Source of the DNA: a bacterium
Lineage (GTDB): Bacteria; Myxococcota_A; UBA9160; UBA4427
Direction of reading: 5' to 3'
NCBI GenBank assembly: GCA_024742285.1
Contig: JANSYR010000010.1
Location: 62,001-126,000, forward strand
DNA: 64,000 nt
Part shown: in pieces, positions 11,832 through 63,852 of the stretch
How positions within the stretch are numbered: position 1 is the first letter of the stretch
How the letters are laid out: each line of letters begins with the position of its first letter
Program-made: the position numbers and the translations under genes
The notes under the pieces: generated by a model
The model's input: the letters and a program-made list of their open reading frames with translations, nothing else
What the model was told of the DNA's origin: nothing
Database searches by the model: none

Positions 11832-12782
11832 GTGACGCCGCTCGCTCCGGGTCAGATCTCACTGCGCCTCTATCCCCACCGACTTCCGCCGGTCGAGCAG
11901 GTGGAGCAGATGCTCGCCCAGGCCCGGGTGGCGGAACGTGCCGGCTGGGACGGTCTGATGACGAGCGAGCATCACGGCGGCTTTCCCGACTACGTGCCGA
12001 ACCCGCTGCAGCTCGCGGGCTGGCTCCTGGAGGCGACCGATCGGATCTGGGCGGCGGCCTGTCCGTTGCTGCTCCCCCTCTACGCGTGGTCCCACGTCGC
12101 CGAGCAGGTCGCGTGGCTCGCGGCGCGCTTTCCCGAGCGCGTCGGCGTCGGCGTGGCGGTCGGCGGCCTCGCCCAGGATTTCGAGATGGCGGGCCTCGAC
12201 TACGAAGACCGGGGTGCGGTCTTCCGCGCGTCGTTTCCGCTCCTGGCGGAGGCGCTCCGGGGCGAGGCGCAATCGCCGCTCTCGGAGGACGCCGCGATCG
12301 CCGCCACCCGGGAGCGTCCGATTCCGGTCGTGTCGGCCGCTCAGGGGCCGAAGGCGGTCGCGCGGGCGGCGGCGGCGGGAACGGGTGTCCTCTTCGACTC
12401 GCTGCAGACGCTGGTTCGGATGCGGGCGCTCTGCGACGCCTACGAGGAGGCGGGCGGCTCCGGCCCGCGGATCGCGATCCGTCGCGTGTGGCTCGGCCCG
12501 GCGCCCTCCGAGGAGGTCGCCGAGCAGATGGCCTTCTACCGGAGCTACGCACCGGAGGCCGCTCAGGAGCACTGGGGCGACGGCCAGCAGATGATCGCGG
12601 CGGAGGGTGCCGAAGAGGTCGCGGCGGGCCTGCTCCGCGTGGCGCGCGAGGGCGGCGCGGATGCGTTCAACCTCCGCGTCCACGTGAAGGGCATCGAGCC
12701 TTCGCGGGTCGACGAACAGATCGCGCGGGTCGGCGAGGAGCTCCTCCCGATCCTGCGTCAGGAACTGGTCGCCACACGTTAG
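11832..12782 (+). CDS. LLM class flavin-dependent oxidoreductase
   Basis: A 316-residue luciferase-like monooxygenase. The N terminus (ISLRLYPHRLPPVEQVEQML, then ERAGWDGLMTSEHHGG) and the mid-protein FPERVGVGVAVGGLAQDFEM follow the family fold, and PVVSAAQGPKAVARAAAAG is the later flavin phosphate-binding region. It is not closely similar by eye to the other LLM protein at 8287. I chose GTG 11832 because the conserved barrel starts a few residues later and the upstream frame reads as the antisense of the hydrolase. Its stop shares TTAG (12779-12782) with the convergent DsbA/HCCA gene. Cofactor (FMN or F420) and substrate unknown. Confidence 0.87.
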   Translation: MTPLAPGQISLRLYPHRLPPVEQVEQMLAQARVAERAGWDGLMTSEHHGGFPDYVPNPLQLAGWLLEATDRIWAAACPLLLPLYAWSHVAEQVAWLAARFPERVGVGVAVGGLAQDFEMAGLDYEDRGAVFRASFPLLAEALRGEAQSPLSEDAAIAATRERPIPVVSAAQGPKAVARAAAAGTGVLFDSLQTLVRMRALCDAYEEAGGSGPRIAIRRVWLGPAPSEEVAEQMAFYRSYAPEAAQEHWGDGQQMIAAEGAEEVAAGLLRVAREGGADAFNLRVHVKGIEPSRVDEQIARVGEELLPILRQELVATR

Positions 12783-14172
12783 TCGACGGCCCCGAGACGT
12801 CGGCGGATCTCCGCGGCCACCAGCCAGAGCCGATCCTGCCCCCAGACGGAGAGCAGGGTCCGTCCCTCCGCGTCGAGGAGGCGATAGCTGGGTACGCCCC
12901 ACAGACCGAGCTCTTCGTACATCGTCTGCCGGTTCGTCTCGAGCTCCTCGCGCCAGGCGTCGGAGTCGAGATGCTCGCGGGCGGCTTCCCAGTCGAGGCC
13001 GGCGCGCTCGACCACGAAGCGGAGCCCCGCGTCGTCGCCGGTCTTGCGGCCTTCGGCGAAGGCGGCCCGCAGGAACGACGAGAGGTACTCGGCGCCGCGA
13101 CCGGCGTCGCGCGCGAAGGGCCAGAGCGAGAACCCGCGAAGGACCGGCTCGCCGATCGGGTCGTACATGTCGCCGAAGGGGACGCCGATGTGCTCCGCCT
13201 CCCGGATGGCATCGCTCATGATGTAGAGGCCCTTCGCGGCGGGGGCGGGTACGCCCCGCATGACCATCGGCATGACCGGTCGGAGCTCGACCGGAATCCC
13301 GACGCGCCTCGCGAGCTCGATGCTCTCGTCGAAGATGACGGCGGTGTAGGGCGAGCGCAGGGAGGGGTAGATCTCGAGGCGGAGGCGGCCCCGGTTCTGG
13401 ACGGTGCCCGGATCCAGCGGCGGGCGATCGAAGCGAATCGCGTCGTCGCTCCCGGATCGCCGTGCGCCGTAGCGGCTCAGGCGCCGCTCGAGGAGGTAGA
13501 CGCGGTCGACGCCCCAGTACCACTCGCCCCCGTAGAGAAACATTCCGCCGGAATAGTGGCGCCAGCGCGTCCGCAGCGCGTTGCCCGCTTCGATGGCGGC
13601 GCGCCGGGCGGCTTCGCTCGCGGCGGGGATGCGCGCCTCGAGCTCCGCCAGCCCGCCTCGTCCCCGCGCCACAACGCGCGGCCCGCTTCGAGTGCGACGT
13701 CGAGGAAGCGCGGATCCGCGCGGAGGTCGGTGAGCAGGGCCTCGACCCGGGCGACGCGCTCCACGGGCGGCGCGTCCGCGTCGGCGGGGAAGGAGAGGCC
13801 GTAGTGGGGGGCGACGCTCGCGCTGTCGCGTCTCGCGTAGGCCGCCAGCAGGTCGGGCTCGGGGGCGTAGAGCTTCTCCGCCTGGCCGACCAGGTGGAAG
13901 CGGAACTCGATCTCGAAGCGAGCGGCCAGCTCGGCGGCCGCCTGGATGGCGAGTTCGCTGTAGGCGTCGTCGACCTGGTGGAAGAGATGGACGACGTGGG
14001 GGGCACCGCGGAGCCGTCGAAGACGCTCGGCCACGCCCTGACGCGCGCGGCGCACCTTCGGTACGACGCGCATCACGTTGCGCATGAGGATGCGAACGGC
14101 GTCGGGGGTGTCCTGGCGGCTGGCGGCGCCGGGCTGAGCGGAATCGTCGTTGCGGGTGCCTGCTTCTTCCAT
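12779..14172 (-). pseudogene. Two-domain DsbA/2-hydroxychromene-2-carboxylate isomerase-like protein, frameshifted
   Basis: Two reading frames together make one thioredoxin-fold protein. The 5' part starts at ATG 14172 (GGGAG upstream) and encodes a first DsbA-like domain (VVHLFHQVDDAYSELAIQAA) that runs sensibly up to RALWRGDEAG. The remainder continues without loss in a different frame from LAELEARIPAASEAARRAA, and ends at 12779. The switch lies near 13648-13655 and is repaired by adding one base. The second domain has the HCCA-isomerase hallmarks SLRSPYTAVIFDE, with Ser at the glutathione-activating position, and WGVPSYRLLD...VWGQDRLWLV. In the literal sequence the first frame stops at 13477. 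It may be a real mutation, a sequencing error, or less likely programmed frameshifting. Such domains isomerise CoA or aromatic intermediates using glutathione. Confidence 0.75.
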
Positions 14173-14226: not shown

Positions 14227-15909
14227 CTACTCCTCGACGAAGGTGTTCTCGCCGAGGCCTTCCAGGACATGCTTCATGACCTTGCCGGTCGCGTTGCGCG
14301 GGAGCGGCTCACGGCGGATCTCGACGAACTCCGGGACCTTGAAGTAGGCCAGGGTTTCCGCGCAGAAGTCGCGAATCGCCTCTTCGGTAGGCGATGCGCC
14401 TTCGTTCGGAACGACGACGGCCTTCACGCGCTGGCCGAGCTCGCGATCGTCCACGCCGTGGACGGCCACCTCCGCGACATCGGGGTGGAGCTCGATCCGG
14501 TTCTCGATCTCGGCGGGATAGATGTTCTCGCCTCCGCGGATGATCATGTCGCGCATCCGGGACTCGATGTGGAGTCGTCCATCGATCAGGCGGCCGAGGT
14601 CACCGGTGTCCACCCAGCGGCCCGGGAGGAAGTTCTCCTCGTTCGCCTTCGGGTTGTTCAGGTACTCGAGCATGACCAGCGGGCTGCGAACGCAGACGCG
14701 TCCCGCCTCGCCGTCGGGGACGTCCTTGCCCTCGTCGTCGACGATCCGGATCTGCACGGTCGGGAGCGGCGGGCCGACGCAGTTCTCGGCCTCGCGGAGC
14801 ATCGCGTTGTTCGCATAGCTCACGAGTCCGCCCGTCTCGCTCGAGCCGTAGCCCGAGCCCACGGCTCCCTCGAGCTGCGGGAACTTCTCGGCCACCGCCC
14901 GTAGGAGCTCCGGGGTCGAGGCCGACCCGCCGACGCCGACGCTGGAGAAACGGCTCGTGTCGAGCTTCTCCATGTCGGGGTGGTCGATCAGGCGGAAGAC
15001 GTGGGTCGTGGCTCCGCTCCAGCTCGTGATGTCCTCGTCGATCGAGAGCTGGATGATGCGCGCCGGGTCGAAACGGCCCATGGGCCAGACGCTCGTGCCG
15101 CCGCCGGCCAGGGTCGCTGTCGTGCTGCCCATCGTGCCCGAGAGGTGGAAGAGCGGGAAGGGCGCCAGAACCGCACCGGGACTTCCCGCCGGCGGCTCGG
15201 TCATCATGCGCCGCGCGCCGATGAAGAAGCTCGACATCGTGAAGGCGACCAGCGTCCGGTGGGAGACGAGCGCGCCCTTCGGCCGGCCGGTCGTGCCCGA
15301 CGTGAAGAGGAGCAGGCAGGGATCGTCCTCCGCGATCGGCGTGTCCGGCAGGGCGGCGTCCGGCGCGAAGGTCCGGATCGTCTCGAAGTCCTGCTCGAAG
15401 GAGACGACGGGCATGCCGGGCTCGCCCTCCATTTCGGCGAGACGCTCCTTCCGACGTTCGTCGACGAGCAGGAGCTTCGGCTTCGCCAGGTCGAGGCCGT
15501 AGCGGATCTCGTCGCCCTGCCACCAGCCGTTCATCGAGATGACGACGCCACCGAGGGAGACCGTGGCCCAGTAGGTGAGGATCCACTCCGGGGCGTTGGC
15601 CGCGAGGATCGCGACGTGGTCGCCCTTGCCGATCCCGTAGCGCTCGCGGAACGCGGCCGCGACGCTCGCGACGTCGGCGAGGTGGTCGTCGTAGGTCCAT
15701 CGGCGGCCGTCGGCGAAGACCATGTAGTCCTTGTCGCCGTGGGCGGCGGAGGCCTGCAGCAGCTCCCGAAGTGACTTCGCGCGATTCTTGTAGACCTGCA
15801 TCGTCTCCCCGAGGACTTCCTCCTCGGCGAGCTCGAAGGGGCTGCCGGGGGCGAGGAGGCGCGCTTCGGCCTCTTCGAGGGAGAGCAGGGCGGGGGCGTC
15901 GCTGGACAT
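14227..15909 (-). CDS. Acyl-CoA synthetase (class I adenylate-forming)
   Basis: A 560-residue AMP-binding enzyme. The adenylate-forming P-loop is LLFTSGTTGRPKGALVSHR, motif A5 is GSGYGSSETGG, the core hinge motif is WVDTGDLGRL, and the C-terminal acyl-transfer Lys lies in PLPRNATGKVMKHVL. It activates a carboxylic acid to an acyl-CoA through an acyl-AMP. ATG 15909 follows an AGGAG about 9 nt away. It is the last intact synthetase gene of a long minus-strand block containing DUF35 and thiolase-fold genes, so its substrate is probably the acid degraded by that block. Chain specificity cannot be read. Confidence 0.93.
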   Translation of the reverse strand: MSSDAPALLSLEEAEARLLAPGSPFELAEEEVLGETMQVYKNRAKSLRELLQASAAHGDKDYMVFADGRRWTYDDHLADVASVAAAFRERYGIGKGDHVAILAANAPEWILTYWATVSLGGVVISMNGWWQGDEIRYGLDLAKPKLLLVDERRKERLAEMEGEPGMPVVSFEQDFETIRTFAPDAALPDTPIAEDDPCLLLFTSGTTGRPKGALVSHRTLVAFTMSSFFIGARRMMTEPPAGSPGAVLAPFPLFHLSGTMGSTTATLAGGGTSVWPMGRFDPARIIQLSIDEDITSWSGATTHVFRLIDHPDMEKLDTSRFSSVGVGGSASTPELLRAVAEKFPQLEGAVGSGYGSSETGGLVSYANNAMLREAENCVGPPLPTVQIRIVDDEGKDVPDGEAGRVCVRSPLVMLEYLNNPKANEENFLPGRWVDTGDLGRLIDGRLHIESRMRDMIIRGGENIYPAEIENRIELHPDVAEVAVHGVDDRELGQRVKAVVVPNEGASPTEEAIRDFCAETLAYFKVPEFVEIRREPLPRNATGKVMKHVLEGLGENTFVEE

Positions 15910-16055
15910 TCGAAAGGACTCCTGATCGCGGGGAGCGGTCGATGGGCTCACGTTCCGGGAGGGCGCGAACTCGATGGGCAGGGATGAGATCCCCGGGCGG
16001 GAGCGGATGGGTAGCTCGCCGTGTGCTCGCAGGGTAGCGAGCGGGTGTCCGGGGC

Positions 16056-16487
16056 TCAGCCGGGGCCCAGGACCGAGCGGTCTCCCTGCTCCATCATCGC
16101 GCGGCAGACCCGCCGCCGGGAGCGCCAGCCCGCCGGCGTCCGGATCAGCTCGTCTTTGTATTCGATCCAGCTCTCGTAGGTCTTGCCCGCGTGCTCGCCC
16201 TTGCCCATGTGCATGACCCGGCAGTAGTGCCGGCTCCGGGCGGTGTCGCCGTCGAGCTCGATCCGGTAGTTGCCGAGCAGGTGCTGGCTCGGACCGCAGC
16301 CGTCGAGGTAGCTGCGGATCGACGTCGTGGCCGCGTCCCGTCCCTGCTGCTGCCACTCGACCCAGTCGATCTCGACGTCGTCGGTGAAGACGTCGGCCAG
16401 GCCCGGCCAGTCCCGCTGGTCCAGGCATTCGGCGTAGCGGTCGAGGGTCGCGATGATCGCGAATCGGTCGTCTGCGGCGTCGCTCAT
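16056..16487 (-). CDS. SnoaL-like / NTF2-fold protein
   Basis: A 143-residue cone-shaped NTF2-fold protein. It begins with the typical helix FAIIATLDRYAECLDQRDWP followed by GLADVFTDDVEIDW, and has RSYLDGCGPSQHLLGNY and the later SWIEYKDELIRTPAGWRSRRR strand pattern. Members act as ketosteroid isomerases, polyketide cyclases or dehydratases; an Asp (DDVEIDW) sits where many of them have a catalytic acid. The ATG at 16487 overlaps the stop of the DUF35 gene as ATGA, so it is translationally coupled to it. A dehydratase or isomerase role on the same substrate is inference. Confidence 0.85.
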   Translation of the reverse strand: MSDAADDRFAIIATLDRYAECLDQRDWPGLADVFTDDVEIDWVEWQQQGRDAATTSIRSYLDGCGPSQHLLGNYRIELDGDTARSRHYCRVMHMGKGEHAGKTYESWIEYKDELIRTPAGWRSRRRVCRAMMEQGDRSVLGPG

Positions 16488-16924
16488 CGGTCGTCTCCGG
16501 AACGGGCAGGTCGGAAGCGCAGCAGCGTTCCCTCGCCGCCGTCGGTCGCCTCGAAGACGGGCTCGACCGCCATCCCGATCTCGATCGCCTCGGGCTGGAC
16601 GTCGACGAGCGTCGACGCCATGTGCACGCCCTCTTCGAGCTCGACGATCACGAGCTTCTGGGGTGTCTCGTCCGAGAAGAGGGGATTGGTCGGCTGGTGG
16701 GCCACGGTGAACGTATGGACGACGCCGCGCCCGGACACCGTCTCCCACGCGAGGGCGTTCGAGAGGCAGCCCGGGCAGTTCGAGCGTGGGTAGAAGATCC
16801 AGCGGCCGCAGTCGGTACAACGCTGGATCCGGACCTCGCCGTCGCGGAGCCCGGCCCAGAAGGGCGCCGAGGTCTCGGTCGCGACGGGAAGGGGCTTCGG
16901 AACGCCCTCGAAGGGATTCGCCAT
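16484..16924 (-). CDS. Zn-ribbon OB-fold protein (DUF35)
   Basis: A 146-residue protein with an N-terminal rubredoxin-like Zn ribbon (Cys36, Cys39, Cys50, Cys53 in CTDCG and CPGC) and a C-terminal OB fold (GVVHTFTVAHQPTNPLF, LVIVELEEG). DUF35 proteins are obligate partners of thiolase-fold enzymes, binding acyl-CoA and shaping the active site. The gene follows the thiolase-fold gene at 16935 by 10 bp and is coupled to the SnoaL-like gene by ATGA. The partner lacks the thiolase Cys, so this pair may form a retro-aldolase complex as in the Ltp2/DUF35 system, which is inference. Confidence 0.92.
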   Translation of the reverse strand: MANPFEGVPKPLPVATETSAPFWAGLRDGEVRIQRCTDCGRWIFYPRSNCPGCLSNALAWETVSGRGVVHTFTVAHQPTNPLFSDETPQKLVIVELEEGVHMASTLVDVQPEAIEIGMAVEPVFEATDGGEGTLLRFRPARSGDDR

Positions 16925-16934
16925 GTCTTCCTCC

Positions 16935-18137
16935 TCAACCGCCGCGCAGGATGAGCGCGGACTGCTCGCTCATCACGCCGCCGGTGCCGGACACGAAGGC
17001 GGTCTCGCAGTTCGCGACCTGTCGATCGCCGGCCTCGTGGCGCAGCTGATGGACGGCTTCGTTCACCTGGGACATGCCTCCGGCGCCGCCCGCCTGCCCA
17101 TACGAGAGCTGCCCGCCGTGGGTATTCAGCGGGAAGTCGCCCGAGAAGGTCAGGTCGTGGTCGCGCACGAACGCGAGTCCCTGGCCCTTCTTGCAGAAGC
17201 CGGCGTCTTCGAGGGTCAGCAGGGCCGTGATCGTGTAGCAGTCGTAGACGCAGGCGAGATCGATTTCGTCGCGCGACACGCCGGCCATCGAGAAGGCGAG
17301 CTCGGAGGCGACCCCGACCGGCGTCTCGAGCAGGTCGCGCGCATTGGGTGGTGACTTGACCGTCAATCGCTCGCCGCACCCCGCGATGACGACCGGTCGA
17401 TGGGCCGGGCTCGTCGTTCGGTCCCGTCGGGCGACCACCAGGGCATGACCGCCGGCGACGGGCATCACGATCTCGAGCAGGTGGAGCGGGTCGGCGATCA
17501 TGCGGCTCGCGAGCACGTCGTCTTCGGTGATCGGTTGGCCGTGGAAGACCGCGTCCGGATGGGCGCAGGCGTTCGTCCGCTGGTCGACGGCGATCTTCGC
17601 CATCGCGCGCTCGTCGTAGCCGTGCACCGCGCGATAGCGCTGGGCGATCATCGAGTAGCCCGCGTTCTGGGCCAGGTGGCCGTACGGGATCTCGAACTCC
17701 GCCTGGGGCGAGCCGTGGGAGTTCGAGCTGGCGCCGTAGATGATCCGGTCGTCGAAGGGCTGGCCGGGGCGCGGATCGTGCGGGATCGGTCGTGCGGGGA
17801 TCGCGCAGAGCACGACGTTGCAGAGCCCGAGCTCGATCGCCGCGGCGGCCCGCCAGACCATCCCGACGGCGTTCGCCCCGCCGAGGTCGACCTTCTCGGC
17901 GAAGTTCACCTCGAGGCCGAGGTACTCCGCGACCGTCGCCGGAACGAAGCCGCGGGCTTCGGTGATCATCGGCGTGACGAGGCCGTCGACCTCGGCGGCG
18001 TCGATCTCCGCGTCGGCGAGCGCCTCGCGGGCGAGCTCCGCCCACTGCTCGACCATCGGCGCCCGTCGACCCGAGAACTTCCGCTCGGGCTTCCAGTCCG
18101 CGACGCCCATGATCGCGGCCTCTCCCTTCAGTCCCAT
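16935..18137 (-). CDS. Thiolase-fold protein lacking the catalytic Cys (Ltp2/SCP-x type)
   Basis: A 400-residue thiolase-superfamily protein. The position of the nucleophilic Cys reads KVDLGGANAVGMVWRAA, with Ala/Asn instead of Cys. Where the neighbour at 19221 has the His motif VELHDCF, this protein has CVYDCYTITALL with Tyr. NTHGGQLSYGQAGGAGG near the C terminus supplies another Tyr. This matches what is known of Ltp2-type retro-aldol lyases in steroid side-chain breakdown, which pair with DUF35 proteins, although many uncharacterised SCP-x homologues share the pattern. ATG 18137 is favoured; the SD sequence (GAGGGGAG) overlaps the stop codon of the upstream 311-residue gene, so the genes are co-transcribed. 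Confidence 0.88.
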   Translation of the reverse strand: MGLKGEAAIMGVADWKPERKFSGRRAPMVEQWAELAREALADAEIDAAEVDGLVTPMITEARGFVPATVAEYLGLEVNFAEKVDLGGANAVGMVWRAAAAIELGLCNVVLCAIPARPIPHDPRPGQPFDDRIIYGASSNSHGSPQAEFEIPYGHLAQNAGYSMIAQRYRAVHGYDERAMAKIAVDQRTNACAHPDAVFHGQPITEDDVLASRMIADPLHLLEIVMPVAGGHALVVARRDRTTSPAHRPVVIAGCGERLTVKSPPNARDLLETPVGVASELAFSMAGVSRDEIDLACVYDCYTITALLTLEDAGFCKKGQGLAFVRDHDLTFSGDFPLNTHGGQLSYGQAGGAGGMSQVNEAVHQLRHEAGDRQVANCETAFVSGTGGVMSEQSALILRGG

Positions 18138-18144
18138 GCCCGTT

Positions 18145-19080
18145 CTACTCCCCTCGTCCGTGCGCTTTCCCTGGCCCGGGCTTCTCGAGGCCGAGCCGCG
18201 CGTAGTACTTCGCCGGCACGTCCTCGGGCCGCTTGTAGAGATAGGTCTTGCAGGTCTCGAAGCCAAGGCGCTCGGCGGGCTCCACGACGAAGAGCGGCGC
18301 GCCGGTCTGGCGGATCGAATCGATCTCCATGATCGGCTCGTGACAGCAGTAGACCGGGATCTCGTCGCGCCCGTACGTGAGCGGATGGGGTCCCCGCACG
18401 ACCAGGTCGTTGCGCGGTGTGGCGTAGTGCCCCGCGGCGATCATGCGACCGCCGCTCGGGCAGCGCGTGCAGGCGAAGGTCAGCTTCTCGTCGTCTTCCT
18501 CGAGCGGCACGGGCTGGAGATGGACCCGCGTGAAGTGGGTCAGCGCCTCCGCCCGCTCGCGGAAGGATGCGTTCCCGATCATGTCGCCGGACATCGCTTC
18601 GCCGAGCGCGGCCTCGATTCCCGGGATCCCGGCGTTTCGGCCGATCCACGAGAGGATCGCCGAGACGCGCGACATGCCACGGTCGTGTCGGACGAGGGCC
18701 TCGTCGTGGAGCGCGCGGGCCCGGAGCAGGGCCGCGTCGTTCTCACCTGCGGCGATCGCTGCGTCGATCGCCGCCGCCTCGTCCTTCCAGCGCGGGACCG
18801 GATCCGATCCGTCGCCACCGCGCTCCGGGGCGGCGACGAAATCCTCGATCGCCGCGAGGACCTCATGGCGGTCGTGGCCTCCGAGCGTCCGGTCGACCCA
18901 GGAGAGCAGGGTCTCCTCCCAGCCCGCGTAGTTCCGGATCATCGAGAGCACTTCCCGTCGCAGGCGCTTCACGAAGCCGAGCGCCGCCACCCGGTCGCCC
19001 GCTTCGAGCGCCTCCGCCAGCGCGTCGACGGACCGCAGCCCGAGCACGCGAAGCTCTTCGTCGCTGAATTCCCGCTCCAT
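18145..19080 (-). CDS. Protein of unknown function in the thiolase/DUF35 operon, Cys-rich C terminus
   Basis: I do not recognise this 311-residue protein. The N-terminal 160 residues are predicted from composition to be mostly helical, rich in Glu, Ala and Leu (DEELRVLGLRSVDALAEALE). The C-terminal half contains ACTRCPSGG, later VYCCHEP and a single ETCKTYLY, so five or more Cys and a His that could bind a metal. There is no signal peptide or membrane segment. It is 7 bp from the thiolase-fold gene downstream and is preceded by a terminator-like hairpin (19110-19139), so it is the first gene of the lower acyl-CoA unit. The context suggests a metal- or CoA-binding partner in side-chain degradation. 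Confidence 0.8.
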   Translation of the reverse strand: MEREFSDEELRVLGLRSVDALAEALEAGDRVAALGFVKRLRREVLSMIRNYAGWEETLLSWVDRTLGGHDRHEVLAAIEDFVAAPERGGDGSDPVPRWKDEAAAIDAAIAAGENDAALLRARALHDEALVRHDRGMSRVSAILSWIGRNAGIPGIEAALGEAMSGDMIGNASFRERAEALTHFTRVHLQPVPLEEDDEKLTFACTRCPSGGRMIAAGHYATPRNDLVVRGPHPLTYGRDEIPVYCCHEPIMEIDSIRQTGAPLFVVEPAERLGFETCKTYLYKRPEDVPAKYYARLGLEKPGPGKAHGRGE

Positions 19081-19109
19081 CTCGCTCCATCCCGCTCCGG
19101 AAAGACGAA

Positions 19110-19139
19110 GGGGCCGGCGAGCTCACGCCCGCCGACCCC
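19110..19139 (-). terminator. Rho-independent-type terminator after thiolase/DUF35 unit
   Basis: A 10-bp stem with one G-U pair (19110-19119 with 19130-19139) and a 10-nt loop. On the minus strand it is followed by TTCGTCTTTCC, a moderately T-rich tract. It lies between the thiolase stop at 19221 and the next start at 19080, so it likely ends the upper unit. Confidence 0.6.
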
Positions 19140-19220
19140 CATCGATCGTCATCGCCCTGGCCACGCGCTCCCGATGAATGACGGCTCACCCATCGCCGGT
19201 TGGCCAGAACCGACCCTCAG

Positions 19221-20381
19221 CTAGGCCGACGGTCCCTCCAAGATATGAATTCCGCAGCAGGTGCCGAGGCCGATCACGTGAGCGAGGCCGATCTTCGCGC
19301 CCTCGACCTGGCGCTTGCCGGCCTGGCCGCGAAGGTGCATCGCGATCTCGTACTGGTTCGCGATCCCCGTCGCGCCGATCGGGTGGCCCTTCGACAGCAG
19401 GCCGCCGGACAGGTTCACCGGAATGCGGCCGCCGATCCAGGTCTGCTTCTCGTCGATGAGCTTGCCGGCTTCCCCGTCGCCACAGAGCTGCAGGTTCTCG
19501 TAGTGGAGGACCTCCGCCGTCGCGAAGCAGTCGTGGAGCTCGACGAGGTCGAGATCCTCCGGGCCGACACCCGCCATCTCGTAGGCCTGCGAGGCGGCGT
19601 TCCGCGTGCAGGTGTTCACGTCGGGCATGACCTCGTCGCGGTCCGTCCACGGGTCGGTCGTGAGCACCGAAGCCCGGATCTTGACCGCCTGGCCCTGGAG
19701 GCCGCGTCGTTTCATCTCCTTCTCGGACATGAGGACCGCCGCGGCGGAGCCGTCCACGTTGGCCGAGCACATGAGCTTCGTGTTCGGGTACGAGATCATC
19801 TCCGCGTTCATGACCTCTTCGAGCGGGGTCTCGATCTGGTACCGCGCCTTCGGGTTCATGGTCGAGTGGTGGTGGTTCTTGACCGACACCATCGCGAACT
19901 GCTCGAAGGTCGTGCCGTACTCCTTCGCGTGGGCCATGCCGGCCTCGGCGAAGACACAGGGCATCGAGCCCGAACCGAGCAGGCCTTCCGGGTGCAGCCC
20001 CTTCGGCGCACCGCCGCCACCGCCGAGCATGCCCGCGCCGGCGAGCTTCTCGACGCCGACCGCGAGGACCGTGTCGTAGATGCCGGCGCGAATGGCGATG
20101 TAGCCCTCGCGCAGCGCCGTGGCGCCCGTCGCGCAGGCGTTCGACACGTTGATCGCCGGGATGCCGGTCTGGCCGATCTCTTCCTGGATCTGCTGGCCGA
20201 CCATGCCGGCCGCGGCCATCAGGTTGCCGCTGTAGAGCGCCTGGATGTCGTTGATCGTGACGCCGGCGTCGTCCATCGCGCCGAGCGCGGCCTCGGCCCC
20301 AAGGCTCGCGATCGAGCGGTCGAGGAACTTGCCGAACTTGATCATGTCGATGCCAGTGATGTAGACGTCTTCGCTGCCCAT
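19221..20381 (-). CDS. Thiolase family protein with intact active site (SCP-x type)
   Basis: A 386-residue thiolase. The nucleophilic Cys is in NVSNACATGATALREG, the first His motif in LDLVELHDCFATAEVL, and the GHP(I)GATG motif in LLSKGHPIGATGIANQY, followed by a Cys-containing end (GLGTCCGIHIL). All catalytic elements of a condensing/cleaving thiolase are therefore present, unlike the two other thiolase-fold proteins of the window. It would cleave a 3-ketoacyl-CoA. ATG 20381 has AAAGGAG upstream. The gene is downstream of a DUF35 gene, with a 167-nt gap holding three perfect or near-perfect hairpins. Confidence 0.93.
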   Translation of the reverse strand: MGSEDVYITGIDMIKFGKFLDRSIASLGAEAALGAMDDAGVTINDIQALYSGNLMAAAGMVGQQIQEEIGQTGIPAINVSNACATGATALREGYIAIRAGIYDTVLAVGVEKLAGAGMLGGGGGAPKGLHPEGLLGSGSMPCVFAEAGMAHAKEYGTTFEQFAMVSVKNHHHSTMNPKARYQIETPLEEVMNAEMISYPNTKLMCSANVDGSAAAVLMSEKEMKRRGLQGQAVKIRASVLTTDPWTDRDEVMPDVNTCTRNAASQAYEMAGVGPEDLDLVELHDCFATAEVLHYENLQLCGDGEAGKLIDEKQTWIGGRIPVNLSGGLLSKGHPIGATGIANQYEIAMHLRGQAGKRQVEGAKIGLAHVIGLGTCCGIHILEGPSA

Positions 20382-20461
20382 GGTTTCAGCTCCTTTGCCG
20401 TCCGCGCTGACTTGCCGCGGAGGTCGAATTCTTCAGGCGGTCCGTCGTGACTCGGACTGGG

Positions 20462-20573
20462 GTCGAATACGCGCCAGCGTATTCGACGTGGGTAAAGAGT
20501 CGAACCTGTCGTGCGCGTAGCGCACGAAGTTCGTGCTCGAGCCCGCCGCTAAGCGGCAGGCTTGAGCACGAAC
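20462..20573 (-). other. Three consecutive hairpins between DUF35 and thiolase genes
   Basis: Hairpin A (20529-20573): a 15-bp stem with one wobble pair, a mismatched pair, a 5-bp inner stem and a 3-nt loop; the inner loop holds part of the TAG stop of the DUF35 gene. Hairpin B (20510-20526): CGTGCGC/GCGCACG with a 3-nt loop. Hairpin C (20462-20487): an 11-bp perfect stem, GTCGAATACGC/GCGTATTCGAC, loop GCCA. No T tract follows any of them. They could be processing or stability elements, or partial terminators tuning the ratio of DUF35 protein to thiolase. Confidence 0.7.
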
Positions 20574-20962
20574 GTCAGGTACTCGTTGCCTTCGGCGTCC
20601 TTGCGGGGCGCGGTCTGGAAGTCGACCGTGACGTCCATGCCGAGGGTGATCTTGTCCGGGTCGGGCTCGATGCCGACCAGGTTGGTCTTGATCGTGCCGC
20701 CGCCGTCGAGATCGGCGATCGCGGAGACGAAGGGCACCTCGATTCCCGGGAAGGCCCGGTGGATGATCGAGAAGGAGTGGAGCTTGCCGGTGTTGGCGAG
20801 CTTGACCGGCGCCACGGTGTCCCGCGCGCCGCAGCTCGCGCAGGCCATCCGCTTCTTGAGCGAGATCGCACCGCAGGCGCTGCACTTCTGGCCTTCGAGG
20901 TACGGGTCGCCGCCGGCGGGCGCCTTGAGGTAGGGCTTGATGGTGAGAGTCTCTTCGGACAC
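20549..20962 (-). CDS. Zn-ribbon OB-fold protein (DUF35)
   Basis: A 137-residue DUF35 protein starting at GTG 20962 with a GGAG sequence 8 nt upstream. The four Zn ligands are Cys27, Cys30, Cys41 and Cys44 (CSAC, CASC) and the OB fold follows (LHSFSIIHRAFPGIEVPF, AIADLDGGGTIKTNLVGI). It is the likely partner of the active thiolase encoded next at 19221, as DUF35 subunits are in archaeal acetoacetyl-CoA thiolases and in bacterial SCP-x-type enzymes. The stop codon lies in the apex of a long hairpin that covers the last codons. Confidence 0.92.
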   Translation of the reverse strand: MSEETLTIKPYLKAPAGGDPYLEGQKCSACGAISLKKRMACASCGARDTVAPVKLANTGKLHSFSIIHRAFPGIEVPFVSAIADLDGGGTIKTNLVGIEPDPDKITLGMDVTVDFQTAPRKDAEGNEYLTFVLKPAA

Positions 20963-40884: not shown

Positions 40885-41427
40885 ATGACTTCGAGGAACC
40901 TGCCGGAAGAGGGCAGCACGACCCACGAACGACCGCAGACGACCGCGGAGAAGGAAGCGTTCTCTTCCGGCGGCAATCGTCACCTGATCCTGTTGCGGGG
41001 GAAGTGGGGACTCGCGATCGACACGTTCGTCCTCTGGTCGACCGGCTACTCCCTGATGACGAAGCAGTACGCCGTCGCCAACGGGGTCGCCTACAGCCCT
41101 ACGCTCCTGCTCTACACGACCGGCACGAAGACCGGGAAGAAGCGGCGATGCGGCTTGCCCTACTTCGAGGTCGACGGCGCCTACGTCGTCCGCGGCAGCA
41201 ACGGCGGCGGACCGACCGACCCGCATTGGTGCCACAACGTGCGCGCGAACCCGGACGCGAAGATCCGGGTGCGCGGGCGAACGAAGGCGGTGCACGCGCA
41301 CGTCGCGAGCGGCGAGGAGCGCGAGGTGCTCTTCAAGAAGCTCGACGCGATGAGCCCTTCGACGGGGCAGTACCAGCGGATGTGCGCGCCGCGAGAGCTG
41401 CCCCTCGTCGTCCTGCGACCGATCTGA
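40885..41427 (+). CDS. Deazaflavin-dependent nitroreductase-family protein (Ddn-like)
   Basis: A 180-residue split-barrel protein of the same family as the one at 23997. It has LLYTTGTKTGKKRRCGLPYF and the phosphate-binding VRGSNGGGPTDPHWCHNVRAN. A longer N terminus (about 50 residues) precedes the barrel. Reduced F420 is the probable cofactor. The TTG of the next gene starts 7 bp after its stop, so they are probably translated together. Confidence 0.88.
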   Translation: MTSRNLPEEGSTTHERPQTTAEKEAFSSGGNRHLILLRGKWGLAIDTFVLWSTGYSLMTKQYAVANGVAYSPTLLLYTTGTKTGKKRRCGLPYFEVDGAYVVRGSNGGGPTDPHWCHNVRANPDAKIRVRGRTKAVHAHVASGEEREVLFKKLDAMSPSTGQYQRMCAPRELPLVVLRPI

Positions 41428-41434
41428 GCTCGCC

Positions 41435-42097
41435 TTGAGCGTCTACATCGACGTCTGGCACCGGACCCACCCGCTCACCCCCGAAGCCCACGCTCGCTTC
41501 CTCGACTACTACGCGCGCTACGTGGTCGCGCCGCCCTCGGACTACTTCGAGGTCGTCGCGGGCTTCCGCTACCTCGACGGCCCCACGAACGAGGACTTCG
41601 CGCTCTACCGCTATCCGTCGATGGCGGAGATCGAGGCGTCGATGCGGAGCTACGCCGTCGACGGCGAGGCGCTCCAGGCGACTCTCGAGACGTTCTCGGC
41701 TCTGGAAATCGAGGAGACGCGGGGGATCGCGCTCCATCTCCCCCATGCACCCGAGTCGCGCCTCGACGACGCGATCGCCGCGCCGGGCGGGGAGGGCGCG
41801 CATCGCTTCGTCCGCCACGTGAGGCGCTGCGGCGGAAACGAGCGGCCCGCGGCCTTCGCCCTCCTCGAACGCCAGCGCGACGAGGCGGAAAAGGCCGGCG
41901 GCGGGACCCTCGTGGTGGGCTTCGAGTACATCGTCGGCCCGGTCATGGATCTCGTCGAGATCTGGCGGGTACCCGCGGATCGCGGGGTCTGCCCCATCGA
42001 CGACGTCGACCCGGCGCTCGTGGCCGAGCTCGCGAGGCTGGCGCCGGAGCGGGAGCGGCGGGCAATCGAGCCGACGCGCTTCTCGAAGCTGCGCTGA
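41435..42097 (+). CDS. Protein of unknown function, possible dimeric alpha-beta barrel
   Basis: A 220-residue soluble protein starting at TTG 41435. It begins MSVYIDVWHRTHPLTPEAHA and contains a NIPSNAP/EthD-like rhythm (strand, helix, strand, EDFALYRYPSMAEIEASMRS), and later FEYIVGPVMDLVEIWRVP. I do not recognise the family with confidence. No signal or membrane segment. It sits 7 bp behind the Ddn-like gene and ahead of the amidohydrolase gene, so it may act on the same substrate. Confidence 0.7.
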   Translation: MSVYIDVWHRTHPLTPEAHARFLDYYARYVVAPPSDYFEVVAGFRYLDGPTNEDFALYRYPSMAEIEASMRSYAVDGEALQATLETFSALEIEETRGIALHLPHAPESRLDDAIAAPGGEGAHRFVRHVRRCGGNERPAAFALLERQRDEAEKAGGGTLVVGFEYIVGPVMDLVEIWRVPADRGVCPIDDVDPALVAELARLAPERERRAIEPTRFSKLR

Positions 42098-61761: not shown

Positions 61762-63852
61762 CTAACGCGTGGTCGGGACGTCCCGTCGCGTCGCCCACTT
61801 CCAGCGTTCGATCGCCGCATCGAAGGTCGGCTTCACGTCCTCGGCGAGGAGCCAGCCGGCTGCGAAGAGCTGGTCGATCGCCGCGGCGACCCGGGTCTCG
61901 TAGGCGTCGCGATCGGGATAGAGCGCGCGCAGGGCGGGGCGCGTGTCGCCGGGAGCGCGTTCCGCTTCGGTTCGGGCGAGGGGCAGGAAGGAACCGATGT
62001 AGCCGACCATTTCGTCGGCGCCGCCGGGCTTGCCGTGGCGGAGTGCCCAGGGCGTGTAGGTCCCGATGGGCGCCTGGAGCTCGACTGCGCGCAGACCCGT
62101 CGCCTCGTTGCCGGTCGCGTCGATCCCCGGGACACGGATCGCGTAGGCCGCGCCGCGCTTCGGCGGCTGCACGTCGATGATCCGCTCCTCGAAGCGCGGA
62201 CCGAAGTCGAGGCGATCGGCGACGTGGGGCGAGCGCGGGGGCACGAGGCTCGCAACGGGGTAGTCGAGTGATCCGGGGAGGACGAGGGTCCCGCTCTCGA
62301 TTGTGGGGATCGACGACGCGGGCGGGGCGACGTCGGCCTCGACCCAGGCGAGCAGGTGCGTCAGGAGGGCGCGCTGGAAGGCGCGGGTGTCGATGCTGCT
62401 TCCCACGAAGAGCCCCGGTTCGATCTCGCTTCGCGGATCCGGAGGGAAGGGCAGGGAGTAGTGGGGCGCGCTCGCGACGTGGTAGAGGCGTTCGTCGGCG
62501 ACGGGCGCGACGTCCCGGGTTCCGTCCGGCGTCATGTGGATGAGGGAAGCGGCGCGGCCCCAGTATTCGTAGCCGGTGTTGATCTGGAAGATCTTCGGGA
62601 GCGTGCCGCTCGCGATCGCCCGGTCGTAGAGCCCCGCCTCCCGGTCGCCGTCGCGGGTCGGGCGGCCGGTGAAGGGGAAGGCATCGCCGGGATAGAAGAA
62701 GTTCGCGTAGGGATTGCCGACGCGTCCCGGGTGACCGAAACGATGGTTGAAGCCGCCGCGGCCGGCGCCGCCGATCTGGATCATCATGCCGTCGAAGACG
62801 CGTTCGCTCCCGGTCCCCTCGTCCGCGGCGCCTTCGTTGAAGCCGTCGTAGAGGAAGTGGCGGAGGTAGCGGCCGGACTGGGAGAGCCCGTGCGCGACGA
62901 GGGTCGCTGCGCGAAAGGGACAGTCCGGGTCGCCCTTCACGTAGCGGGCGAAGTCCCGGAACGCGGCGAAGCCGAGCCCGAGGAGCCGCGGCCGACTCGA
63001 CACGTAGACGAGCTCGTAGATCCAGCCGGCTTCGAAGGCGCCGTCGCTCGCCACGATCGATCCGCCTGCTTCGTCGAAGCGCCAGGTCGCGCGCGGGACG
63101 ACCTCACGCTCGGCGTTCCTTGCGCGCCGTCGCGTGAGCCGATTCTCGGGCGCGTCGGGCTCGCTCGCGACGTTGGGGAGGTGGCCGAGGGCTGCGAGGG
63201 GGAGCGTCGTGGCGTCCTCGTCGACGACCCAGTCCGAGCGCGCGAGCCCACGAATCGGCTGGCCCGCGGCGTCGGCGAGTGCGCTCGGAACGTCGAGGGT
63301 CATCGCGTCCGGGAAGCGCGGCGCATCCGCCTGCCAGCCGATCCAGACGACGGTCAGGCCTCGCCGCATCAGGAAACCGTCGCCCCAGTCGAGCGGAGAC
63401 GACGGGTCCAGGGTCGCCGAGGCGCCGAAGCTCCTCTCCACCCGGTTCATGAGCGCCAGGGCGAGTCGGCGGCCGCGGTTCGGGACGTCGAAGAGCGCGG
63501 TCCCGCTCCGCTGCTTCGGGTCGATGGCCTGGAGGACGGTGAAGTCACCGCTCGCCCGGACTTCGGCTTGCTCCGGCGAACGCGCGGCGGCGGCGAGGTC
63601 CGCCACGCGCGCGTTCCCGGGCGCGTCCGGGGCGAAGGCGTAGTGGACCCGACCTTCGATCAGCTCGTAGGGGATCGGCTTCCCGAGGTCGTCGCGAAAA
63701 GCGTCGGGCTCGAGGATCGGGACGCGACGCGTGATCTCGAGCTCGACGACGCGGGCGGCGCCCGGGGCGGCGGCGAGGAGGCCGGCCAGGGAGAGGAGGG
63801 CGACGAGGATTGCGACGGGGCGGAGAGCGACTGCGTGGGTACGGGCGATCAT
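61762..63852 (-). CDS. Large exported alpha/beta hydrolase (Abhydrolase_10-like)
   Basis: A 696-residue protein with a Sec signal (ILVALLSLAGLLAAAPGAA) and a long catalytic domain with the nucleophile elbow GLSQSGRYLRHFLYDGFNE. The N-terminal 250 residues are beta rich (FDVPNRGRRLALALMNRVE). Members of this family are annotated as alpha/beta hydrolase domain proteins of unknown substrate and occur often next to acyl-CoA and steroid genes. The ATG overlaps the stop of the amidohydrolase at 63849 as ATGA. Confidence 0.88.
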   Translation of the reverse strand: MIARTHAVALRPVAILVALLSLAGLLAAAPGAARVVELEITRRVPILEPDAFRDDLGKPIPYELIEGRVHYAFAPDAPGNARVADLAAAARSPEQAEVRASGDFTVLQAIDPKQRSGTALFDVPNRGRRLALALMNRVERSFGASATLDPSSPLDWGDGFLMRRGLTVVWIGWQADAPRFPDAMTLDVPSALADAAGQPIRGLARSDWVVDEDATTLPLAALGHLPNVASEPDAPENRLTRRRARNAEREVVPRATWRFDEAGGSIVASDGAFEAGWIYELVYVSSRPRLLGLGFAAFRDFARYVKGDPDCPFRAATLVAHGLSQSGRYLRHFLYDGFNEGAADEGTGSERVFDGMMIQIGGAGRGGFNHRFGHPGRVGNPYANFFYPGDAFPFTGRPTRDGDREAGLYDRAIASGTLPKIFQINTGYEYWGRAASLIHMTPDGTRDVAPVADERLYHVASAPHYSLPFPPDPRSEIEPGLFVGSSIDTRAFQRALLTHLLAWVEADVAPPASSIPTIESGTLVLPGSLDYPVASLVPPRSPHVADRLDFGPRFEERIIDVQPPKRGAAYAIRVPGIDATGNEATGLRAVELQAPIGTYTPWALRHGKPGGADEMVGYIGSFLPLARTEAERAPGDTRPALRALYPDRDAYETRVAAAIDQLFAAGWLLAEDVKPTFDAAIERWKWATRRDVPTTR

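Follow-up and report, generated by a model that had tools for sequence, protein, structure and literature searches.

A 64,000-nucleotide stretch from a bacterium of the Myxococcota_A (GTDB lineage UBA9160, UBA4427; positions 62,001 to 126,000 of contig JANSYR010000010.1, GenBank assembly GCA_024742285.1), referred to here as the window, carries two gene pairs, each encoding a DUF35 protein and a thiolase-fold protein, with an open reading frame (ORF) for a 311-residue protein, P311, between them. The locus raises the question of what each pair does, and whether P311 belongs to either complex. A reading made from the letters alone (the sequence-only reading) had taken the lower thiolase-fold protein to be an Ltp2-type lyase and P311 to be a possible new partner. 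Our conclusion, which as a whole we hold to be likely, is that the lower pair is a steroid aldolase made up of a Sal protein and its DUF35 partner (DUF35a), that the upper pair is an ordinary thiolase with its own DUF35 protein (DUF35b), and that P311 is independent of both complexes. All five ORFs lie on the minus strand at the places originally noted (Table 1) and have strong codon scores, from a gene caller trained on 15 genes of the stretch, these five among them.

The lower enzyme belongs with Sal

The best solved relative of the lower enzyme in a search of PDB sequences was 9myr_A (520.9 bits). This chain was taken to be CtSal, described in PMC12329534 as the retro-aldolase of Comamonas testosteroni for bile-acid C5 side chains, because '9MYR' appears twice in the main text of that paper and Tyr302 and Cys304 fall at YDCY in the numbering of the chain. 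According to the same paper, Tyr302 and Cys304 of YDCY are essential in CtSal, Cys304 being an acid and not a nucleophile, a Gly takes the place of the thiolase nucleophile, and Gln161, Gln347, Gln352 and Gly391 lie within the active site (PMC12329534). The lower enzyme shares 59 % identity with CtSal and 30 % with TcLtp2. It has YDCY in place of HDCF, with Y298 and C300 aligned with Y302 and C304 of CtSal, Gly87 at the position of the thiolase nucleophile, and Q157, Q343, Q348 and G387 corresponding to Gln161, Gln347, Gln352 and Gly391; every CtSal active-site residue named in that paper and mapped onto the lower enzyme is retained. The Tyr that the sequence-only reading placed at the HDCF position is thus present, and the absence of Cys that it reported is correct for the nucleophile, which is replaced by Gly, but not for Cys300 of YDCY, which is kept.

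In a tree of 25 rows, midpoint rooted for drawing only and with two long branches flagged (the outgroup thiolase and Ltp2), the lower enzyme falls in a group of ten rows that includes CtSal, a protein from Vibrio alfacsensis, two Rhodococcus plasmid proteins and relatives (support 97/98). Because residues, identity and tree all place the enzyme with CtSal, the lower pair is, judged by its sequence, of the Sal type (YDCY, C5 side chains) and not of the Ltp2 type (YDHF and a second Tyr, C3 side chains). Membership of Ltp2 was ruled out by YDCY and Gln348, as opposed to YDHF and the catalytic Tyr344, and membership of the SCP2 thiolases by Gly87 where the nucleophile Cys is expected. The kind of enzyme proposed earlier, a retro-aldol lyase that needs a DUF35 partner, therefore stands, but the subfamily does not.

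A third Sal-like type, also paired with DUF35, was seen at two loci from the phylum (L068 and L078; Table 1). As in PDB 4u4e, its motif is YDSF and the Gln352 position is taken by His.

The DUF35 partner of Sal

DUF35a, encoded directly downstream of Sal, matches the Pfam families OB_ChsH2_C (1.3e-18) and zf-ChsH2 (8.9e-14), and its best PDB match is 9myr_B, the CtShy DUF35 (143 bits). No MaoC domain is fused to it, as only these two families are above the Pfam cut-off in its 146 amino acids (aa), and its ribbon is of the C4 form, CTDC-x10-CPGC (C-x2-C-x10-C-x2-C), instead of Cys3His1; on these two grounds it was rejected as a Shy, the MaoC-DUF35 hydratase. Nineteen Sal loci were examined, namely 12 from the phylum (L067–L078), four of the nearer orthologue (L153–L156) and three on plasmids. 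A DUF35 gene lies beside Sal at all plasmid loci opened and at L153–L156. For the 12 phylum loci, gene calls place one beside Sal in 11, the exception being L074. The gene after Sal encodes a DUF35-MaoC fusion at the V. alfacsensis plasmid locus, separate DUF35 and MaoC genes follow Sal at the Rhodococcus plasmid loci, and at L155 Sal and DUF35 are followed by two MaoC-like genes, one of them just below the Pfam cut-off. DUF35a is predicted to be an essential partner of Sal.

The ribbon varies among these partners. At seven phylum loci, the ribbon in the DUF35 partners of Sal-like enzymes takes a CPRD form in which Asp occupies the second ligand position, and two Rhodococcus plasmid DUF35s have no ribbon Cys (Table 1). 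L155 also includes acyl-CoA dehydrogenase-like and CoA-transferase-like ORFs (CoA, coenzyme A), which were named by eye.

Predicted reaction and substrate

By analogy with CtSal, the window enzyme is predicted to have retro-aldol activity on 22-hydroxy C5 side chains. The CasG-like ligase encoded nearby would activate the C24 acid, and Tyr298 would take the proton of the C22-OH in a C5-side-chain 22-hydroxy-steroid-24-oyl-CoA, whereupon the C22–C23 bond would break and Cys300 would protonate the enolate of acetyl-CoA, leaving a C20 aldehyde. DUF35a would shape the ring-binding cleft.

In PMC12329534, a preference for the bent rings of bile acids is linked to the His59 loop of CtSal and the Cys3His1 ribbon of the CtShy DUF35, and it is proposed that the His59 loop blocks planar rings. 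The corresponding loop of the window enzyme is two residues shorter with no His there, and among the 25 rows of the alignment the longer His loop is confined to CtSal and the Vibrio protein. As the Vibrio enzyme combines the His loop with a C4 ribbon, the two features are not always found together. Because the window pair lacks the His59 loop and DUF35a has a C4 ribbon, a planar-ring steroid with a C5 side chain is the likelier substrate predicted for it.

The CasG-like ligase also adjoins Sal in a second genome of the genus, G354 (G and L numbers designate genomes and loci). In the window's own genome (G000), there are nine matches to KshA_C-family oxygenases above cut-off, four of them on the window's contig (C10), together with a KstD-like gene (452 bits) and an extradiol dioxygenase-like gene (323 bits), both under cut-off.

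The upper pair

The upper thiolase matches Thiolase_C_1 in Pfam (2.2e-38) and the SCP2-thiolase 6hsj (265.8 bits). It has the Cys in NACATG, HDCF and GHP, as the sequence-only reading had noted, and so qualifies as an SCP2-like thiolase. DUF35b has Pfam matches to zf-ChsH2 and OB_ChsH2_C, a weak NCBIfam match to BbsA and a C4 ribbon. The thiolase is present at at least 86 % identity in seven of nine genomes of the genus, the window's own included. On these motifs and matches, the upper pair consists of a DUF35 protein and an ordinary thiolase of the Cys/HDCF/GHP kind.

P311 is not tied to either pair

P311 homologues were found in 15 of 377 genomes of the phylum (E ≤0.001), but the gene adjoins Sal only in the window and in G327. 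These two have the order P311-Sal-DUF35a-SnoaL in common, and their P311 and Sal proteins are 87–88 % identical. In G210 and G200 the order is CasG-P450-SnoaL-P311, with no Sal or DUF35a between P311 and SnoaL; the SnoaL ATG overlaps the P311 stop in G210, where in the window it overlaps the stop of DUF35a. It looks as if the Sal pair may have been placed between P311 and SnoaL, or removed cleanly.

Outside the genus, no Sal, thiolase or DUF35 gene was found near P311 at E ≤1e-8 in the stretches of 12 loci from 11 genomes (L027–L038), and P311 was absent by tblastn from all 19 Sal loci. Among the nine genomes of the genus, P311 is in four (G000, G200, G210 and G327) and this Sal, at at least 75 % identity, is also in four (G000, G327, G354 and G181), with both in two. 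Sal occurs without P311 in G181, G093 and G065, where P311 is absent from the genome and the loci are not cut on that side. Hence, P311 was ruled out as a Sal partner on linkage. It was also rejected as a partner of the upper thiolase, which occurs without P311 in three of the nine genomes (G354, G167 and G098) and in G210 is at a contig end, unlinked from P311.

The sequence-only reading would have given up P311 as a new partner if the gene were not conserved beside the pair in any relative. It does adjoin the pair in one relative, G327, but the two are uncoupled elsewhere, and P311 is probably not part of either complex. The best explanation for its position beside Sal is that genes of the cluster come and go.

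P311 represents an unnamed family

That P311 was unrecognisable from the letters was confirmed. It had no matches in Pfam or NCBIfam at E ≤0.1 and no significant match among PDB sequences, the best E value of the profile search being 0.28. When 17 members were compared with Pfam and NCBIfam, only stray matches were obtained (in Pfam, LTM in nine members, best E 7e-6, and B12-binding_2 in four, best E 5e-5), which were judged to be helical-composition effects, and there was no V4R match in Pfam. P311 belongs, as an independent protein, to an unnamed family that is absent from both databases. H132, C207, R212, Y244, H247, G260, C277 and K283 are invariant in two alignments, one of 17 rows and one of 15, the latter including three from Rhodococcus plasmids.

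AlphaFold models of the whole protein (predicted local distance difference test, pLDDT, 90.9; predicted template modelling score, pTM, 0.89) and of residues 93–304 (pLDDT 91.3, pTM 0.84) are confident. P311 has a helical N-terminal half, apparently duplicated internally, and a C-terminal alpha/beta domain. The score of the internal repeat in the window protein was reached by one of 500 shuffles, and in four of 13 rows by none of 500; the other rows were weaker and L036 showed no repeat. Compact homologues have one copy. In VIA, rows 1–15 for the domain were all TRAPP subunits (Z 6.6 to 5.4; 139 residues aligned in the top match, root-mean-square deviation 5.3), and later rows included BcsD, PoxR, DmpR and MopR, at Z 5.3 to 4.0, and YslB, at 3.3. 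Designed proteins came in between, at Z 4.2; the tool warns that Z under 8 may reflect a common arrangement. For the whole protein, TRAPP rows were mixed with many unrelated helical rows. Foldseek gave no match at E ≤0.001.

V4R and Bet3 are reported to be homologous (PMC2253512), and P311 was compared using hhalign with V4R and ATC_hydrolase profiles built from relatives after exclusion of the V4R locus L102 and of five ATC loci that were weak. The V4R score was reached by 23 of 150 shuffles for the domain and 56 of 150 for the whole protein, and the ATC_hydrolase score by five and 14 of 150, respectively. The reversed profile scored higher in three of the four comparisons. Three Cys of ATC_hydrolase co-align with those of P311, but in this comparison the reversed profile scores higher and, as stated, five of 150 shuffles reach the score. 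Neither family's profile did better than shuffled columns, and the sequence profiles did not place P311 in either family. The model of P311 weakly resembles TRAPP/V4R domains, and P311 possibly includes a V4R/TRAPP-like ligand-binding domain.

Elsewhere, P311 has among its neighbours a Rieske oxygenase together with SnoaL at L038, a luciferase-like monooxygenase at L033, and MaoC with a citrate-lyase-like gene at L034. Glyoxalase-like and SnoaL genes lie near it at L027 and L028, and short-chain dehydrogenase/reductase (SDR) genes at L029 and L031. A plasmid search returned four Rhodococcus records, one of them unannotated; the homologue is in a 2-oxoacid dehydrogenase cluster on pRHL3 of Rhodococcus jostii RHA1 and in a glutamine-synthetase/SDR cluster in two others. 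These neighbourhoods, in which SnoaL_4 and SDR genes recur, would fit a general role in the catabolism of hydrophobic compounds. The cluster of the glutamine-synthetase/SDR type is conserved on Rhodococcus plasmids (L130 and L151; Table 1) and comprises DUF1116, a hydrolase, SDRs and two genes resembling glutamine synthetase.

In 12 of the 15 aligned sequences, C245 is accompanied by Glu or Asp at 267, and the other three have R245 and C268; none has both Cys or neither. The three may form one clade, and hence reflect a single event. We take this exchange as moderate evidence that the Cys/Cys/Glu/Cys set forms a metal site, one ligand of which would have been replaced in a subfamily.

Weighing of the alternatives

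Several observations weigh against our conclusion. No MaoC gene adjoins the window Sal pair, unlike Shy, the match of the neighbouring ligase to the CasG family NF052580 (594 of 750 bits) is under the curated cut-off, and the ring-degradation matches are all below theirs save KshA_C, which we take to be a broad family. L153 (G354) begins 370 base pairs (bp) upstream of Sal, and a P311 gene there could be lost in the assembly gap, and some P311 loci are on short contigs (3.2 and 7.5 kb). The gap between P311 and the Sal pair is 7 bp in the window (18138–18144, the spacing originally noted) and similar in G327, and because these gaps are short the genes are likely co-transcribed in both. Together with the gene order conserved between the two genomes and the high identity of both proteins, this spacing is what would be expected if P311 were a lineage-specific third subunit or accessory of Sal-DUF35a, such as a protein that delivers metal or substrate, confined to the window species and G327. 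We consider this very improbable, given P311 without Sal in G210, G200 and 12 further loci and Sal without P311 in three genomes that lack it. It is unlikely, but less remote, that the substrate of the lower pair is not a steroid but another beta-hydroxyacyl-CoA, such as that of a terpenoid or branched acid, cleaved by the same retro-aldol chemistry. Sal-like paralogues are numerous in genomes of the phylum, in clusters that show no clear steroid genes, and the bile-acid ring determinants are absent from the window pair; against this, the enzyme is in a close clade with CtSal, at the identity given above, and a CasG-like ligase adjoins the pair.

For P311, there is nearly an even prospect that the C-terminal domain is an unrelated new fold in which the Cys and His are catalytic rather than metal ligands. 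The empty Foldseek result, VIA Z scores of at most 6.6 and V4R and ATC_hydrolase comparisons within shuffled scores all suit a new fold; the TRAPP subunits in the top 15 VIA rows, with the PoxR/DmpR/MopR sensors next, and the exchange of C245 and acid 267 for R245 and C268 in three of 15 sequences speak for a V4R/TRAPP-like domain with a metal site. A bolder combination, which we regard as tentative and somewhat doubtful, is that P311 would be the first representative to be described of an unnamed bacterial family that has such a domain, and whose metal site (C207, C245, E267 and C277, with H247) would bind or act on hydrophobic intermediates in several catabolic operons, a subfamily having moved one ligand, while the Sal pair, with its C4 DUF35, would be an aldolase for planar-ring steroids with C5 side chains.

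The Sal structure and its catalytic residues were described only in 2025, for a proteobacterium with a DUF35-MaoC fusion (PMC12329534). The window Sal is a homologue in a different lineage, possibly with a different ring preference, and because it keeps the catalytic residues but is without the two proposed bile-acid determinants, the ring-shape proposal based on the zinc finger and the His59 loop becomes testable by comparing enzymes. P311 deserves a separate look as an unnamed family, as it defines a family of conserved Cys/His proteins that neither Pfam nor NCBIfam contains. Its members are encoded near oxygenase, SDR and CoA genes, and the metal site predicted for them is a concrete one.

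Neighbouring genes

In G327, G210 and G200 the CasG-like ligase and SnoaL genes are separated by a cytochrome P450 gene. The window lacks this gene and has a gap of 146 bp there (15910–16055). A DSBA-like gene is apparently split in two frames in the window and a single ORF of 464 aa in L024, a possible frameshift.

Table 1. Coordinates of genes in the window and of related features elsewhere
Feature	Location	Strand	Remarks
DSBA-like gene	12779-14172		apparently split
AMP-binding acyl-CoA synthetase	14227..15909	-	nearest CasG (steroid-24-oyl-CoA synthetase); NF052580 594 bits, cut-off 750
SnoaL_4-like protein	16056..16487	-	Pfam SnoaL_4 3.3e-31
DUF35a	16484..16924	-	146 aa; stand-alone ChsH2-type zinc-ribbon/OB-fold protein
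Lower thiolase-fold protein	16935..18137	-	400 aa; Sal-type steroid side-chain retro-aldolase (predicted)
P311	18145..19080	-	311 aa; unnamed family
Upper thiolase	19221..20381	-	386 aa; SCP2-like conventional thiolase
DUF35b	20549..20962	-	137 aa, GTG start; zinc-ribbon/OB-fold partner of upper thiolase
KshA_C-family matches, contig C10	e.g. 41327-41908, 132097-132684, 159164-159757, 233942-234520		41327-41908 and 132097-132684 just outside window
DSBA-like gene, L024	6289-7683		single ORF
Third Sal-like type	L068 8934-10091; L078 9252-10409		YDSF
CPRD-form DUF35s	L067 10661-11083; L069 8345-8761; L071 7965-8375; L072 10341-10796; L073 1046-1462; L075; L077		
Rhodococcus plasmid DUF35s	L128 9200-9622; L131 9217-9645		no ribbon Cys
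P311 homologues, Rhodococcus plasmids	L130 5590-6624; L151 4563-5624		

Comparison with known systems

The lower pair most resembles CtSal with the CtShy DUF35 (PDB 9myr), in overall identity, in the mapped active-site residues, in the Gly at the nucleophile position and in the DUF35 encoded alongside. It differs in that DUF35a, a 146-aa protein beside the 400-aa thiolase-fold protein, stands alone without a MaoC fusion and carries a ribbon of the C4 form instead of Cys3His1, and in the lack of the His59 loop. TcLtp2 with the ChsH2 DUF35 (PDB 6ok1) also has a thiolase fold without the nucleophile Cys, a base Tyr and a C4 DUF35 ribbon, but at 30 % identity has YDHF and Tyr344 where the window enzyme has YDCY and Gln348. 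The upper pair shares the Cys, HDCF, GHP and a DUF35 partner with the SCP2-type and BbsAB-like DUF35 thiolases, though its matches are below the NCBIfam cut-offs.

The model of the P311 domain aligns over about 140 residues with V4R/TRAPP (Bet3) proteins, such as the PoxR/DmpR/MopR phenol sensors, but at Z 6.6 or less and with no significant sequence match; unlike these sensors, P311 has no AAA+ or DNA-binding domain and has the extra duplicated helical N-terminal half. The zinc ligands of DmpR are given as Cys151, Glu172, Cys177 and Cys185 (PMC7264223), and the spacing of C245, E267 and C277 in P311 (22, 32) is close to that of Cys151, Glu172 and Cys185 (21, 34).

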